Shown: in pieces, positions 13,844-19,496 of the stretch
Layout of the letters: the number at the start of each line of letters is the position of its first letter
How positions within the stretch are numbered: position 1 is the stretch's first letter
Notes under the pieces: generated by a model
Told to the model about the DNA's origin: nothing
Databases searched by the model: none
Seen by the model: only the letters and a program-made list of their open reading frames with translations
Translations under genes and position numbers: made by a program
Assembly: GCF_900111255.1 (NCBI RefSeq)
Contig: NZ_FOGP01000004.1
Coordinates: 1-64,000, forward strand
Reading direction: 5' to 3'
Length of the DNA: 64,000 nt
Origin: Parafannyhessea umbonata
GTDB lineage: Bacteria > Actinomycetota > Coriobacteriia > Coriobacteriales > Atopobiaceae

Positions 13844-13918
13844 GTCCCCATCGTCTAGTGGTTAGGACATCGCCCTTTCAAGGCGGCGACACGGGTTCGA
13901 ATCCCGTTGGGGGCACCA
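13844..13918 (+). tRNA. tRNA-Glu (anticodon TTC)
   Basis: Complete cloverleaf: acceptor GTCCCCA pairs with TGGGGGC (one T-G pair), the anticodon loop CTTTCAA gives TTC, the T arm is ACGGG-TTCGAAT-CCCGT, and CCA is encoded. Its 3' end is followed by a terminator, and both are partly duplicated downstream. Confidence 0.95.
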
Positions 13919-13927
13919 CGTTACTTC

Positions 13928-13954
13928 AGCTCTCTATCTCCAGAGAGCTTTTTT
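13928..13954 (+). terminator. Terminator of tRNA-Glu
   Basis: AGCTCTCT pairs with AGAGAGCT around the loop ATCTCC and is followed by a T run. A second version with a different stem but nearly the same loop (ATCTCT) occurs at 14098-14117. Confidence 0.85.
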
Positions 13955-13971
13955 GTTAGGACAACGTCCCA

Positions 13972-14073
13972 GGGAGTCGAACCGCAAGGTCGCAAGGCGC
14001 CAGTGGCGCCTTGCGGGGTGAGCGCGAAGCGCGAACCCTCAGAGCCTTGCCCGAAGGGCAACGCGGGACTCCC
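13972..14073 (+). repeat. Cloverleaf-like nested inverted repeat
   Basis: An outer 7-base stem (GGGAGTC at 13972-13978, GACTCCC at 14067-14073) encloses three hairpins in a row. The first is a perfect 10-base stem, GCAAGGCGCC with GGCGCCTTGC and loop AGT (13992-14014). The second is GGGT-GA-GCGC-GAA-GCGC-GA-ACCC with opposed GA mismatches. The third is TTGCCC-GAA-GGGCAA. A GCGGG-ACT-CCCGC hairpin can form instead of the outer stem, and the 3' edge then reads like a tRNA T arm and acceptor end (CTGGGGGCACCA). No open reading frame explains this. RNA or mobile repeat is undecided. Confidence 0.55.
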
Positions 14074-14074
14074 G

Positions 14075-14152
14075 CTGGGGGCACCACGTGAGATTAGCCC
14101 TCCTATCTCTAGGAGGGTTTATTGTTAGGTCAACGCCGCAGGGAGTCGAACC
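14075..14152 (+). repeat. Second copy of the tRNA-Glu 3' end, terminator and spacer
   Basis: This copies the order found after the true tRNA-Glu. TGGGGGCACCACGT (14076-14089) repeats 13908-13921. A terminator-like stem CCCTCCT/AGGAGGG with loop ATCTCT (14098-14117) replaces AGCTCTCT/AGAGAGCT. The spacer TTGTTAGGTCAACG and the sequence AGGGAGTCGAACC then recur. The two terminator stems differ on both arms but still pair, so structure is conserved over sequence. From 14153 the two copies diverge. Confidence 0.7.
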
Positions 14153-14287
14153 CGTGAGCGCGTGCGTTGGCACGATATATCTGCCGAGTGCGCAATGCAT
14201 TTTTTACAGTGATGGCATAAGTAACTGTCGGTATATAGATTCAAGAAGCAATGGGCTTAGCTGCCCACAGGGAGAAGGAGCACGTCA

Positions 14288-14656
14288 ATGGAAAAGGTAG
14301 AGCGTTTGCTGGCGGAGCTGAAGGAGCATGCCTAAGCACAGGAACTCTTGAAGGAGCGCGACACGATCGAGACCATGTCGGACTTTGCCGAGGTAATCCT
14401 GTCCTCCGCGCAGAGGCTGGGGGTCGAAACGGATGTTGATGCCCCCGAGCTTGCTGGGTACCTGGAATCCATGGAGGCCTTCCAGAGAGACTCTACGGAG
14501 CAGGCGGCCGATGCGTTACTCGAGCTCGAAGATAGTGATCTGGAGAATGTTGCAGGCGGCAAAGGCCATTCGTGCGGTCAGTCTATGGGTGAGGCATTCG
14601 ACCATGCGTTTGAATGCTGGAGCAACGACAAGTGCGCCACGTTCCTCTGGAACTAA
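14288..14656 (+). pseudogene. Double-glycine leader peptide precursor (RiPP/bacteriocin-like), interrupted by TAA
   Basis: From ATG 14288, behind a strong AGGGAGAAGGAG site, the frame reads MEKVERLLAELKEHA, hits TAA at 14333-14335, then continues in the same frame to 14656 (122 codons in all). The second part has an acidic leader of the Nif11/nitrile-hydratase kind ending DSDLENVAGG, a classic double-glycine cleavage motif. A 31-residue core with three Cys, two Trp and two His follows. A TTG at 14348 with AGGA upstream could restart translation. No modification enzyme is nearby; a broken ABC exporter lies convergent. The nonsense codon is seen directly; a former secreted modified peptide is inferred. 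Confidence 0.6.
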
Positions 14657-14674: not shown

Positions 14675-15050
14675 CTAAACCGACAGATACATCTCGTTCT
14701 TCATGTCGTAGATGATGCGCTCGCTGATCCACGAGTTGATGTAGTTCTCCAGCACGCCCACCAGCTGGCTCGCGAGCATGGCGCCAAGGGCGGTAAACAG
14801 TAGCCTGACCAGCAGAGTCAGGTCATCGCCTACCAAGGCCTGGTCGACGATGCGTCCCGTGATGATGGGGGGGCAGCAGGCCCACAACGCTCGAAACAAG
14901 GATGGCCACGAAGACGGCAATGAACTGAAGCCAGTAGGGCGCAAGATAGCTGAGGATTCTCTTGAGCAGCTGTGGCGTCACCTTGGGCGCATTGGCCTTC
15001 TCTTCCTCGGTCAGAAACTGCTGTCGTCTATATCCACCCGGTGCTGGCAT
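14675..15050 (-). pseudogene. ABC exporter fragment, frameshifted and truncated
   Basis: Starting at 15050 behind AGGAG, the first frame gives the N-terminal part of an ABC exporter membrane domain (PQLLKRILSYLAPYWLQFIA, then SVVGLLPP). The reading frame is lost at a run of seven G/C bases (about 14867-14873). The next frame continues the same protein: IITGRIVDQALVGDDL, then ENYINSWISERIIYDMKNEM. It stops at 14675 after about 125 residues. The rest of the membrane domain and the whole ATPase are missing, so the gene is dead. It ends 18 bases from the end of the peptide precursor, so the two may be remnants of one export locus. Confidence 0.75.
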
Positions 15051-15141
15051 GGCTACTCCTCAGGTGGTGGGTTTTGCCCATAGTACCAGCGGATTGTTAC
15101 CACTTTGCAGCGCGTGTTCGTCCCCGACGGGCGAGCCGGCG

Positions 15142-15975
15142 TTAGATTTCGCGAATCTCGCGGATGCGCCATTCGCGCGGCGTGAGGCCCGTGGCGTGCT
15201 TGAAGGCCGTCTGCAGGTGGCTCTGTGATGAGAAGCCGGTCTGGTAGGCAATCTGTGCAATGTCGTAGTCAGTGGTGTCAAGCAGGCGTCGCGCACGCTC
15301 GACGCGCACGCGCCTCACGTAGGCCGCAAAGGTCTCGCCCGTCTCGTTCTTAAAGCGTGTGCAAAGCGTCTTGCGGCTCACGCCCAGGGCGTTTGCCACC
15401 GAGTCTCCGTCGAGGCGCTGCGAGAGGTGGCTGCGTACGTAGTTCATTGCCTGATGCGAAAGCGGGTGCGTACGCGCTTTGCCCTCTTTGCGAACAGCCT
15501 TGGTCAGCTCCAACATCATGGGAAGCACCAAGTAATGGGCCACTTCCTCGTTGCTCGTCTCGTTGGCGAGGTTCATATAGTGCTGTGTGATGGCAAACGA
15601 GCGGATGGCGGGCAATCCGCCCTTGCGGGCGGCCTCAATACAGGTGCTGGAAAGGAAGGCCACGGCAGAGCGTCCCTGTAACAGCGGATCGTCTGAGGTC
15701 TTGGGCTCCATAAGCGGCATGTCGGTGCGGATGAAGCGCAGCAGACCATCGGTGTCGCCCAAGGCTATATAAGAAGCAAAGCCTTCGTACTGCTCGGCGA
15801 TCTCGCGAGCAGACACGTCGGTGCTCACTGCTATGAACTGCATGTTCTTTGAGTAGGTCACGATCTCGGACATCTCGTCCTCGACGCTGGCCTTGTTGAC
15901 AAAACTGACGGCGTCAATGATTTCCTGCTCGGTAAGAAGGGTGGGCATGACCAGCTCAAGATCTACGGCACTCAT
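15142..15975 (-). CDS. AraC-family transcriptional regulator
   Basis: A 277-residue regulator. The C-terminal AraC DNA-binding domain (residues about 175-275) has both helix-turn-helices: GDSVANALGVSRKTLCTRFK, and DIAQIAYQTGFSSQSHLQTA followed by FKHATGLTPREWR. The N-terminal 170 residues form a helical sensor region of a kind common in Gram-positive AraC proteins and have no named motif I can see. It is divergent from the mannose-type PTS at 16210. Two direct repeats 31 bases apart in the shared promoter region fit an AraC operator, so it probably activates that PTS. Confidence 0.9.
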   Translation of the reverse strand: MSAVDLELVMPTLLTEQEIIDAVSFVNKASVEDEMSEIVTYSKNMQFIAVSTDVSAREIAEQYEGFASYIALGDTDGLLRFIRTDMPLMEPKTSDDPLLQGRSAVAFLSSTCIEAARKGGLPAIRSFAITQHYMNLANETSNEEVAHYLVLPMMLELTKAVRKEGKARTHPLSHQAMNYVRSHLSQRLDGDSVANALGVSRKTLCTRFKNETGETFAAYVRRVRVERARRLLDTTDYDIAQIAYQTGFSSQSHLQTAFKHATGLTPREWRIREIREI

Positions 15976-16123
15976 GAACCCTCCAATTGTGTGTGCACTA
16001 CCACAAATCTAAAAAAAGGCGTAACACAGCTTGTATCTCAAACGATTTGCCATCTTCATACTTTACACACACAGTTACAGTTTGGCGCGACAAATTCAGA
16101 GGGTCGTACGAAAGCCCTCGGTT

Positions 16124-16173
16124 GTCATGCAAAACAGAAAGGCCGCGCTCTTTGGTCATAAAACTGAAAGGCC
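16124..16173 (+). promoter_or_regulatory. Direct repeats upstream of the mannose-type PTS, candidate AraC site
   Basis: GTCAT followed by AAAACAGAAAGGCC (16124-16144, with a GC insert) and GTCAT-AAAACTGAAAGGCC (16155-16173) are direct repeats offset by 31 bases, about three helical turns. They end 36 bases before the first PTS gene. Direct repeats on one DNA face suit an AraC dimer. No confident -10 or -35 box could be set. Confidence 0.5.
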
Positions 16174-16209
16174 AAAAGGCGGTCGCGGAGAAGAGGGGAA
16201 AATCACCAC

Positions 16210-16641
16210 ATGCGTTACCTGCTTCTGGTCAGTCACGGCACAATGGCACCCGGCGTGCATAGCGTCATCCGCATGCTCCTGGGCGATCGTGAGAACGTGC
16301 TCAGCTGCTCGATGGAGGATGGCGTGTCGGCTGACACGTTTGTCGAGAAGCTTCGTGAGGTCATCGCTCCCATTACCGCTGACGACTCTGTCGTAGTCCT
16401 CGGCGACATCGTGGGCGGCTCGCCTCTCACCAATACCCTGAACACCCTCACCGAGGCTGGGCTGCTCGCCAAGACGATCGCGTTCGGCGGCCTTTCCCTG
16501 CCCATGGCTATCAGCGCCCTCATGGCCATCGAGGACGACCTCGATGACTCTGCCCTTGTTGAGAACGTCGTTTCCGAGGCAAGGGAGGGGGCTCGTCAGG
16601 TCGAGCTCGCCTTCGAGGACGAAGACGAAGACGACCTGTAA
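16210..16641 (+). CDS. PTS mannose/fructose/sorbose family EIIA
   Basis: A 143-residue cytosolic phosphocarrier that takes phosphate from HPr and passes it to EIIB. The fold begins RYLLLVSHGTMAPGVHS, with the phosphorylated His9, and has the DIVGGSPLTNTL motif near residue 75. It is the first gene of a PTS operon with separate A and B proteins; the other system in this window has them fused. The tail is very acidic (EDEDEDD). The sugar is not determined. Confidence 0.92.
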   Translation: MRYLLLVSHGTMAPGVHSVIRMLLGDRENVLSCSMEDGVSADTFVEKLREVIAPITADDSVVVLGDIVGGSPLTNTLNTLTEAGLLAKTIAFGGLSLPMAISALMAIEDDLDDSALVENVVSEAREGARQVELAFEDEDEDDL

Positions 16642-16679
16642 GGAACGACCCGCTTAGAAGGAAAGAAGGGAAGGCAACT

Positions 16680-17177
16680 ATGATTTCGTTCGTCCGTATT
16701 GATGACCGTATGATTCACGGCCAGACCGTCACCCGCTGGAGCATTGAGTATCCCTGCGACGGCATCATCGCAGTCAATGACGTTGCGGCAAGCAACCCGG
16801 TCCTGAAGGCTGCCTACAAGGGTGCCGCTCCCGACAAGAAGATCTTTGTCTGGACCATGGACCACTTTAAGGAGAGCGCCGAGAAGGTGCTGGCCAGCAA
16901 GACCAAGTACTTCCTCATCACCAAGAACCCGCTTGACATGAAGGAGATCCTTGTTGACTTCGGCTTCAAGCCGTCCGACGTCAAGCGCGTCATCGTCGGC
17001 CCCTGCAACGACCGCCCCGGCACCGTCAAGCTCGGCAACAACCAGTCGATCACCGCTGAAGAGGCTCAGGCCTTTGAGGACATGACCAAGGCTGGCTACA
17101 CCGTCGAGTTCGCACTGGTCAAGGAGACCTCGATTGGCGAGTGGCCCAAGTTCCGCGACCAGTTTGACGTTAAGTAG
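16680..17177 (+). CDS. PTS mannose/fructose/sorbose family EIIB
   Basis: A 165-residue cytosolic domain that carries the phosphate to the incoming sugar. The active site is the His of FVRIDDRMIHGQTV (His14). RIDDRxIHGQ near the N-terminus is the family signature. It follows EIIA by 38 bases with GGAAAG before the start, and precedes EIIC across a hairpin at 17193-17229. Confidence 0.92.
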   Translation: MISFVRIDDRMIHGQTVTRWSIEYPCDGIIAVNDVAASNPVLKAAYKGAAPDKKIFVWTMDHFKESAEKVLASKTKYFLITKNPLDMKEILVDFGFKPSDVKRVIVGPCNDRPGTVKLGNNQSITAEEAQAFEDMTKAGYTVEFALVKETSIGEWPKFRDQFDVK

Positions 17178-17192
17178 TTCCCTAGGCACCAA

Positions 17193-17229
17193 CACCCATG
17201 GGCCCAGCTGGCAGGCGTACCCATGGGTG
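17193..17229 (+). other. Hairpin between EIIB and EIIC
   Basis: CACCCATGGG (17193-17202) pairs perfectly with CCCATGGGTG (17220-17229) over a 17-base loop, inside the PTS operon. With no T run it is more likely an mRNA processing or stability element that sets the ratio of soluble to membrane subunits than a terminator. Confidence 0.5.
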
Positions 17230-17286
17230 AGGCAAAAATGCCCATAAGGGCAATCTGTAAGTAGTGTAAACGGTTAGGAGGAGTTC

Positions 17287-18150
17287 ATGGGAATCTCCAT
17301 GTTCCAGGCCATCTTGCTTGGCCTGTTCGCCTGCTTGGCATCACTGCCGGGCATGGGCGGCACCACGGTCGGTAACTACACGCTCGGACGCCCGCTGGTG
17401 GGCGGCCTGATTGTCGGCCTCATCATGGGCGACATTCAGACCGGCATCATCGTCGGCGCAGCCATCCAGCTCGTCTACATCGCACTGGTCACCCCCGGTG
17501 GCACCGTCTCCGCAGACGTTCGTGCCGTCACCTACATCGGCATCCCTCTGGCCATCCTGGCCATCCATGCCCAGGGCCTGGATCCCAGCTCTGAGGCCGC
17601 CTCTGGTCTTGCCGCTTCCCTCGGCGCCGCCGTTGGTACCCTTGGTACCGTTCTGTTCTATGGCACCGCTACCCTCAACCTCGTGTGGCAGGGCATCGGC
17701 TGGAAGGCCATGGACGGTGGCAACTGGAAAACCATCAAGAAGACCATCCCCATGGTCGACTTTGTGTTCCCGTGGATCAGCCACATCGCATTCTCCTTCA
17801 TCCCCACCGTGGTCATCTGCCTCGCCGGTGAGTCGATGGTCGGCCTGATGAAGGACTACCTGCCCATGGACGGCGTCGCCATGAAGACCCTCTTCACGGT
17901 CGGCTCGCTGCTTCCCGCCGTCGGTATCGCAATTCTGTGCAAGCAGGTCATCCAGAAGCCGCTCGACTGGGTCACCTTTGCCTTTGGCTTCATTCTGGCC
18001 GCAGTCATGGGCTGCAACCTCATCTGCTCGGCTGTCATCGCCGTCTTCTTCGCTCTGATCAACTTCAAGGTCGAACAGATCAAGCTTGCCCGTCCCGCCG
18101 TCGCTGCCGCTGGCGCAGCCTTCGACGATGAGGAAGAGGAGGACATCTAA
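17287..18150 (+). CDS. PTS mannose/fructose/sorbose family EIIC
   Basis: A 287-residue polytopic membrane protein, the sugar channel component together with EIID. The N-terminus has the family pattern PGMGGTTVGNYTLGRPLVGG and the following GLIMGDIQTGIIVGAAIQL. Several hydrophobic segments follow, and the C-terminus is acidic (DDEEEEDI). GGAGG precedes the start. It is separated by 2 bases from EIID. Confidence 0.92.
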   Translation: MGISMFQAILLGLFACLASLPGMGGTTVGNYTLGRPLVGGLIVGLIMGDIQTGIIVGAAIQLVYIALVTPGGTVSADVRAVTYIGIPLAILAIHAQGLDPSSEAASGLAASLGAAVGTLGTVLFYGTATLNLVWQGIGWKAMDGGNWKTIKKTIPMVDFVFPWISHIAFSFIPTVVICLAGESMVGLMKDYLPMDGVAMKTLFTVGSLLPAVGIAILCKQVIQKPLDWVTFAFGFILAAVMGCNLICSAVIAVFFALINFKVEQIKLARPAVAAAGAAFDDEEEEDI

Positions 18151-18152
18151 TC

Positions 18153-18986
18153 ATGGCTGACCTCAAGAAAGTTTCCGCTGGCGCGCGCAAGAGCGCGTTC
18201 CTCCGCTGGATTTATGGCAACCTCACCTGCTTCTCGCAGGAGCACATGCAGACCTTTGGTTACCTTGCCGCCATGCTGCCCGTCGTGGACGAGCTGTATG
18301 ACAACGACGAGGACAAGGTCAAGTACCTCAGCACCTATCGCACGTTCTTCAACACCGAGCCTCAAATCGGCACCATGGTTGTCGGCCTGACCGTCGGTCT
18401 TGAAGAGGCCCGCGCCAACGGTGAGCCCCTTGACGACGACACCATCAACGGCATCCGCGCCGGTCTGATGGGCCCGCTCGCCGGCCTCGGCGACTCCATC
18501 ATCGTCGGCACCTTCATCCCCATCCTGCTCGGCATCGCCCTTGGTCTCTCCACTGGCGGCAGCGTGCTTGGCCCGCTGTTCTACATCATCGTGTGGAACC
18601 TCGCCATGTACTTTGGCATGAAGTTCGCCTTCGATCAGGGCTATGAGCTCGGTGGCTCCGCCGTTGAGGCTCTTGTCGGTCCGCAGTCCGCAGCTCTCCG
18701 TGACTCCATCGTCATGGTCGGCACCATGGTCATCGGCGCCGTTGCCGCAACCTGGATCAACATCACCACTGCCCTGAGCTTCCAGTTCTCCGCCGACAGC
18801 GGCCTGGTCCTTCAGGACACCCTCGACTCGATCTTCCCCAAGTTCCTCAACATCTTCTTCGTATGGCTGTGCTGGTACCTCATGACCAAGCGCAAGATGT
18901 CCCCGACCGTCGTCATGGGCCTGCTTGTGGTCGTCGCTCTCGTGGGCGTTCTGCTCGGCTTCTTCGACCCGGGTCTGTCCTACTAG
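18153..18986 (+). CDS. PTS mannose/fructose/sorbose family EIID
   Basis: A 277-residue membrane partner of EIIC. The long cytosolic N-terminus includes RWIYGNLTCFSQEHMQTFG, the EEARANG segment, and the family core INGIRAGLMGPLAGLGDS, followed by membrane segments. It lies directly after EIIC and is followed by a small membrane protein gene in the same direction. Confidence 0.92.
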   Translation: MADLKKVSAGARKSAFLRWIYGNLTCFSQEHMQTFGYLAAMLPVVDELYDNDEDKVKYLSTYRTFFNTEPQIGTMVVGLTVGLEEARANGEPLDDDTINGIRAGLMGPLAGLGDSIIVGTFIPILLGIALGLSTGGSVLGPLFYIIVWNLAMYFGMKFAFDQGYELGGSAVEALVGPQSAALRDSIVMVGTMVIGAVAATWINITTALSFQFSADSGLVLQDTLDSIFPKFLNIFFVWLCWYLMTKRKMSPTVVMGLLVVVALVGVLLGFFDPGLSY

Positions 18987-19011
18987 TCATCAACGGAACG
19001 GAGTGGGCAAG

Positions 19012-19377
19012 ATGGGACTTCGTGTGGCGTTTCGCGGAAAGGATGGAGAGCCCTCCCTCTATCGCCGTGCCTGGAAAGAGACCGACAACCCGCTGGTTGC
19101 CGAAGCTCGCGCCCAGACCCTCGCGATCCAGAAGCTTCAGCTTTGGTTGCGTCTTGCCTACTCCGCTCTAGCCCTGGCTGTGCTCTTGGGCTATTGGGGC
19201 TTTCAAGAAGGTGGAGGGCTCGTAGCAGGGATTGCGGGTGTCGTTATAGGTGTCCTCGCGCTCGTGTGCGTATTGGTGCTCAGAACGGGCATTAACAACG
19301 GGCGTAAGAACGTCAACGCCATGCTCGAATCGCTGCAACCAAATAAGGAGCCGCACGCTTCTGTCTCAGGTGAATAG
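19012..19377 (+). CDS. Small membrane protein associated with the PTS operon
   Basis: A 121-residue protein of unknown function. The ATG at 19012 has GGAG upstream; the longer frame from 18925 overlaps EIID and is unlikely. A cytosolic N-terminus of about 45 residues is followed by two membrane helices (about 47-65 and 70-92, LAYSALALAVLLGYWGF and GVVIGVLALVCVLVL) and a polar tail. Its place 25 bases behind EIID suggests co-expression and a role at the transporter. Confidence 0.75.
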   Translation: MGLRVAFRGKDGEPSLYRRAWKETDNPLVAEARAQTLAIQKLQLWLRLAYSALALAVLLGYWGFQEGGGLVAGIAGVVIGVLALVCVLVLRTGINNGRKNVNAMLESLQPNKEPHASVSGE

Positions 19378-19408
19378 AAACGTGACTACCTCCCTTCCTT
19401 TTTCCTTT

Positions 19409-19438
19409 GCCCCGCATGGACCCTCCTCCATGCGGGGC
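19409..19438 (+). terminator. Terminator of the mannose-type PTS operon
   Basis: GCCCCGCATGGA pairs perfectly with TCCATGCGGGGC around a 6-base loop, 31 bases past the small membrane gene. The T content after it is low. Confidence 0.6.
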
Positions 19439-19496
19439 GCCCTTGTAACGGCCTGAGCTGCGTGCGATTTGCCGCAGCGCACTGAGAGGAGCTGAC

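Follow-up and report, generated by a model that had tools for sequence, protein, structure and literature searches.

Introduction

Nif11-derived precursor peptides (N11P, TIGR03798) were described in 2010, with Eggerthella lenta among the organisms (PMC2887384). A survey from 2014 reported clusters of the NHLP/Nif11-like kind in anaerobes including E. lenta, together with radical SAM proteins and a transporter that contains a peptidase (PMC4289311). In the cyanobacterial prochlorosin-type precursors (LanM/ProcM), one enzyme serves precursors that possibly lie away from it (PMC10783134). Among the ranthipeptides, PapB of the freyrasin system (PapA/PapB) links Cys to Asp or Glu in Cys-X3-Asp/Glu motifs (PMC9413430, PMC11002830).

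Here we describe a precursor locus in 64,000 nucleotides of Parafannyhessea umbonata DNA, the whole of which is called the window below. Like the precursors of the Nif11/NHLP clusters (E. lenta Elen_2949/2953/2954; PMC2887384, PMC4289311), it specifies a long acidic leader ending in ELxDxxLExVAGG and a Cys-rich variable core, and its relatives occur with radical SAM proteins and the TIGR03796/TIGR03797 exporter; the organism is of the same bacterial class as E. lenta. Unlike them, the window gene is orphaned, bears a stop codon, has a CWxNDxC core and alone stays below the TIGR03798 threshold. With the prochlorosin type it shares a Nif11 leader and a double-glycine site; its relatives, however, pair with radical SAM/SPASM proteins, and targeted searches of the window's genome found no such enzyme acting in trans. 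As in the ranthipeptides, the cores of its family have Cys-X3-Asp, here within a shared C-x3-D-x-C (CWSND in the window core), and the family maturases are of the radical SAM/SPASM type, whereas the leader is Nif11-like, the window core has one such motif against six in PapA, and the chemistry here is predicted.

The window locus is a degraded member of a kind of RiPP described since 2010–2014. We consider it very probably the recently inactivated, orphaned structural gene of a Nif11-type/radical-SAM RiPP, from which no product is expected in this genome.

Results

A precursor frame interrupted in its leader

Positions 14288–14656 translate as MEKVERLLAELKEHA, a stop, AQELLKERD...ELEDSDLENVAGG-KGHSCGQSMGEAFDHAFECWSNDKCATFLWN and a second stop (Table 1). 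A previous sequence-only reading had described a ribosome site, a 15-codon start, a TAA and a continuation in the same frame, followed by a VAGG motif and a 31-residue core with three Cys, two His and two Trp, and we recovered all of these features. The whole leader is about 90 aa long and ends in ELEDSDLENVAGG; from start to core it is broken once, by the TAA at codon 16. After the stop, the GC content of the frame at the three codon positions is 0.62/0.41/0.71, much as in the genes around it. As an open run of 106 codons is expected at about 2% from base composition, its length alone is weak evidence, and the case for a precursor gene therefore rests on homology.

Table 1. Features of the precursor locus and its surroundings, and pieces of the maturase profile in other genomes (contig:positions)
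Feature	Position	Strand	Basis or remark
tRNA-Glu	13844..13918	+	
Shine-Dalgarno AAGGAG, 7 nt 5' of ATG 14288	14275..14280	+	sequence
Nif11-like leader, first 15 codons, upstream of stop	14288..14332	+	translation; about 7 bits gained in frame with family profile
In-frame TAA, leader codon 16	14333..14335	+	translation, family profile; sense codon in relatives at that column
Remaining precursor frame, 106 open codons, then second TAA	14336..14656	+	profile match alone E = 1.1e-13; coding-like codon-position GC
TTG, candidate restart codon, AGGA 4 nt upstream, spacing close	14348..14350	+	sequence only
VAGG double-glycine leader cleavage motif	14549..14560	+	translation; V and GG invariant across the 8-sequence alignment
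Core, 31 residues, KGHSCGQSMGEAFDHAFECWSNDKCATFLWN	14561..14653	+	translation
CWSNDKC, family core motif C-x3-D-x-C	14615..14635	+	motif count in relatives' cores; identical heptapeptide in L111
ABC exporter remnant, residues 58-143 of 786, shifted frame	14688..14881	-	comparison with G010; outside the peptide system
ABC exporter remnant, residues 1-62 of 786	14868..15050	-	80% identical to intact G010 gene
C-terminal SPASM pieces of maturase profile	L171:6604-7032, L172:5445-5945, L173:6620-7165, L174:3153-3482, L175:5559-5741		

Homology of both parts of the frame to a precursor family

We built a profile on eight precursors found in other Coriobacteriia, the window itself excluded, and searched it against all six-frame pieces of the window and 2000 shuffles. 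The joined window frame matched at E = 8.6e-16, as compared with 0.019 for the best shuffle; on these scores, its resemblance to the precursors is beyond chance. The part after the stop matched by itself with 49.1 bits, and the score rose to 55.9 bits when the 15 residues before the stop were added in the same frame, which indicates one gene split by a stop.

The sequence-only reading had taken the locus, with its Nif11-like leader, either for a RiPP or bacteriocin gene that was recently killed or for one now started at the internal TTG, and had named as evidence against it close relatives that all lack the core or the VAGG motif, or a lack of both transcription and conservation of the frame after the stop. 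The homologues in other Coriobacteriia have an uninterrupted frame and keep both the VAGG site and a core of the CWxNDxC type, and these stop-free homologues, together with the profile match, bear out the first proposal, with a nonsense codon as the lesion in a Nif11-like RiPP precursor. Two open homologues came from G062, which belongs to a different family within the order, in a search of 100 related genomes; an order-wide search added further homologues and found the precursor missing in two congeners. In neutral simulations, a frame of this length broke again after a median of about 1–6% divergence, so either the stop is young or a restart product is being kept. We conclude that the inactivating stop is probably recent.

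The HMM search of the joined translation that had been proposed gave a divided outcome, with nothing above cut-off in Pfam and NCBIfam and the strong match to the relatives' profile given above. The leader model TIGR03798 did not match the window precursor at E < 1, and the plantaricin C lantibiotic leader model gave a weak match below cut-off (E = 0.025). A sister precursor, L003, passes TIGR03798 (leader_Nif11) with 39.8 bits against a cut-off of 32.3, and another relative, L002, reaches 26.1, below that cut-off. The window precursor is linked to accepted TIGR03798 members through such intermediate relatives (E = 8.6e-16), and its putative membership of the Nif11 family rests on them; it also has the double-glycine motif at the leader end followed by a Cys-rich core (3 Cys in 31 residues). 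No match was found by tblastn of the post-stop part against plasmids and phages, or in a scan of viral contigs with query A1. A scan of genome contigs with the window peptide gave no relative, though it may omit the records closest to the window.

Radical SAM/SPASM maturases beside the intact relatives

Proteins that are 38–63% related adjoin the precursors of G062 (twice), G168, G129, G363 and G172; in G120, such a protein is at most a few kb away from the precursors. Both of the two proteins that we tested against Pfam have Radical_SAM and SPASM domains. None of the NCBIfam maturase models reaches its cut-off on the family maturase, and the maturases show distant sequence similarity to solved peptide maturases, SkfB, PqqE and others. 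One complete G062 cluster also encodes TIGR03796 (937.7 against a cut-off of 853.3) and TIGR03797 (734.4 against 709.4), the NHLP-type exporter pair, the first member of which has the C39 peptidase.

When named genomes were scanned with the maturase alignment, we obtained 326 relatives. The best 80 of these were mostly from gut MAGs, many of them ruminant, and included Clostridia, Lachnospiraceae, Solobacterium, Synergistaceae and Coriobacteriales; a precursor match was present at 59 of the 80 loci. Core motifs were counted in 91 precursor matches at E < 1e-8. C-x3-D-x-C occurred in 50 of the 91 cores (2.6 expected from shuffles) and CWxNDxC in 16 (0.01 expected). The window core, which at 31 aa is short, keeps only part of the family core pattern, and its heptapeptide CWSNDKC is found unchanged in L111.

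Several genomes depart from the simple pairing. On a single contig of G120 (L036) there are three maturase relatives together with at least three precursors, of which two have WCWSNDEC or WCWSDDAC in the core, and we read these copies as a local expansion of the system. Precursor-like matches in G307 (L041) and G176 (L038; genome 81% complete) were accompanied by no full-length family maturase in the genome; further orphan precursors may thus exist, for example in these two. The Atopobiaceae-type genomes G010, G001, G176 and G057 have C-terminal SPASM pieces only, covering positions ~340–459 of the 463 of the maturase profile. These are likely to be maturase remnants, as if the system had been lost repeatedly.

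The partners are missing from the window's own genome

Targeted searches were made in the genome of the window, a draft of one strain in 13 contigs that is 99.8% complete. No C39 peptidase, no TIGR03796/TIGR03797 exporter, no SPASM domain and no TIGR03798 leader match was found in it. The maturase profile detected only two generic radical SAM proteins (E ~1e-11, the best 9e-12). These are MoaA and a radical SAM protein without SPASM, and a maturase acting in trans from elsewhere in the genome was rejected. The remark that no modifying enzyme lies near the gene thus extends to what the targeted searches covered in this assembly: neither a radical SAM/SPASM modifying enzyme nor a processing exporter for the precursor turned up, near or far.

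These absences bear on whether the gene could still be used. Restart at TTG 14348, or read-through of the TAA, would give a peptide with a shortened leader, unmodified or modified by an unrelated enzyme, and the 106 open post-stop codons with coding-like GC, the AGGA directly before the TTG and the intact VAGG and CWSNDKC would suit such use. We regard this as unlikely, because the first 15 codons are part of the family leader, the weak Shine-Dalgarno sequence has a short spacing to the TTG, which is itself poorly placed, a simple scan found no sigma-70-like promoter upstream, and C39 peptidase, SPASM protein and family maturase are all missing from the genome. Still less probable is that the TAA stems from an error in sequencing or assembly, or is a change confined to this strain, and that the species carries an intact precursor. 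A lesion of one codon in a frame that is intact elsewhere, seen in one strain and in a draft of 13 contigs, would be compatible with that, but the lack of both maturase and C39 exporter in a 99.8% complete genome is an independent sign of disuse. Inactivation of an orphaned precursor gene agrees better with these observations.

The neighbouring ABC gene belongs to another block

DNA shared with the congener G002 spans the tRNA-Glu gene up to ~14086, and the precursor segment beyond it is unique. From 14688 to 19443, the window is 78–84% identical to G010, which belongs to another genus. The precursor sits in ~600 bp between G002-like and G010-like DNA. Within 13902–14152, some of the 3' end of the tRNA-Glu gene and the sequence following it recurs downstream, over 20 bp at 95% and 31 bp at 90%, and both copies have a terminator-like hairpin; the repeat may be a duplication of the tRNA end or an old integration scar.

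The tRNA-Glu gene and a broken ABC exporter had been cited as neighbours supporting an accessory peptide locus. The tRNA gene is indeed present. The ABC gene, which consists of two frame-shifted pieces covering residues 1–143 of a 786-aa protein, does not serve this argument, since its intact G010 copy lies near the same AraC/PTS block, is of the MsbA type and has no C39 domain. By this comparison, it is an ordinary exporter of the neighbouring PTS/AraC block. The AraC protein is 88% identical in G010 as compared with 68–69% in congeners, and horizontal transfer of the AraC/PTS block with the ABC remnant is possible.

The same comparison weighs on the suggestion that the core is a disulfide-type, unmodified class II bacteriocin with the broken ABC gene as its transporter. 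Three Cys behind a double-glycine leader, and the sub-threshold plantaricin C match, could be read in this way. Yet leaders of class II are short, with 23 aa for TIGR01847 (PMC2887384) against ~90 aa here, the family to which the leader and core belong is paired with radical SAM/SPASM maturases, and the ABC remnant lacks C39 and has its G010 counterpart near the AraC/PTS block. We therefore set the bacteriocin suggestion aside as extremely improbable, in favour of a relic of a Nif11-type/radical-SAM system.

Discussion

By analogy with the relatives, an intact system of this kind would work as follows. The ribosome would yield a precursor with a ~90-residue leader, to which the dedicated neighbouring radical SAM/SPASM maturase would bind in order to modify the Cys-rich core, most likely by forming thioether bridges from Cys to Asp at C-x3-D-x-C. 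Cutting after VAGG and export of the product would then fall to an ABC exporter of the NHLP type that carries a C39 peptidase. The conserved C-x3-D-x-C fits such a linkage, since PapB joins Cys and Asp in Cys-X3-Asp motifs. In P. umbonata, with the maturase and the C39 exporter absent and translation predicted to end at codon 16, no product would be expected. The partners may have been lost, or may never have arrived with the fragment. The system seems to have been gained and lost repeatedly in the Atopobiaceae, several genomes of which keep only C-terminal SPASM pieces.

As a single locus, a dead precursor is of little importance. It shows the absence of maturase, SPASM protein and C39 peptidase as a tested criterion for calling an orphan precursor a relic. 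A non-exhaustive check of the literature found no description of a CxxxDxC Nif11 group, and this larger family, which appears to be biochemically uncharacterised, is a more interesting lead than the window locus itself. Tentatively, and with somewhat less than even confidence, we suggest that there is a large RiPP group in anaerobes of the gut and rumen, apparently uncharacterised in its biochemistry, of which the window gene would be a fossil. Such a group would combine a leader of the Nif11-like type, a core with C-x3-D-x-C and its own radical SAM/SPASM maturase, and its products would probably bear Cys-Asp thioether (ranthipeptide-like) rings. The locus thereby leads to a Nif11/radical SAM/SPASM precursor family that is widespread in rumen and gut anaerobes and has a conserved CxxxDxC core; its intact clusters, for example those on the L084/L087 or L111 contigs, lend themselves to a direct test for thioether chemistry.
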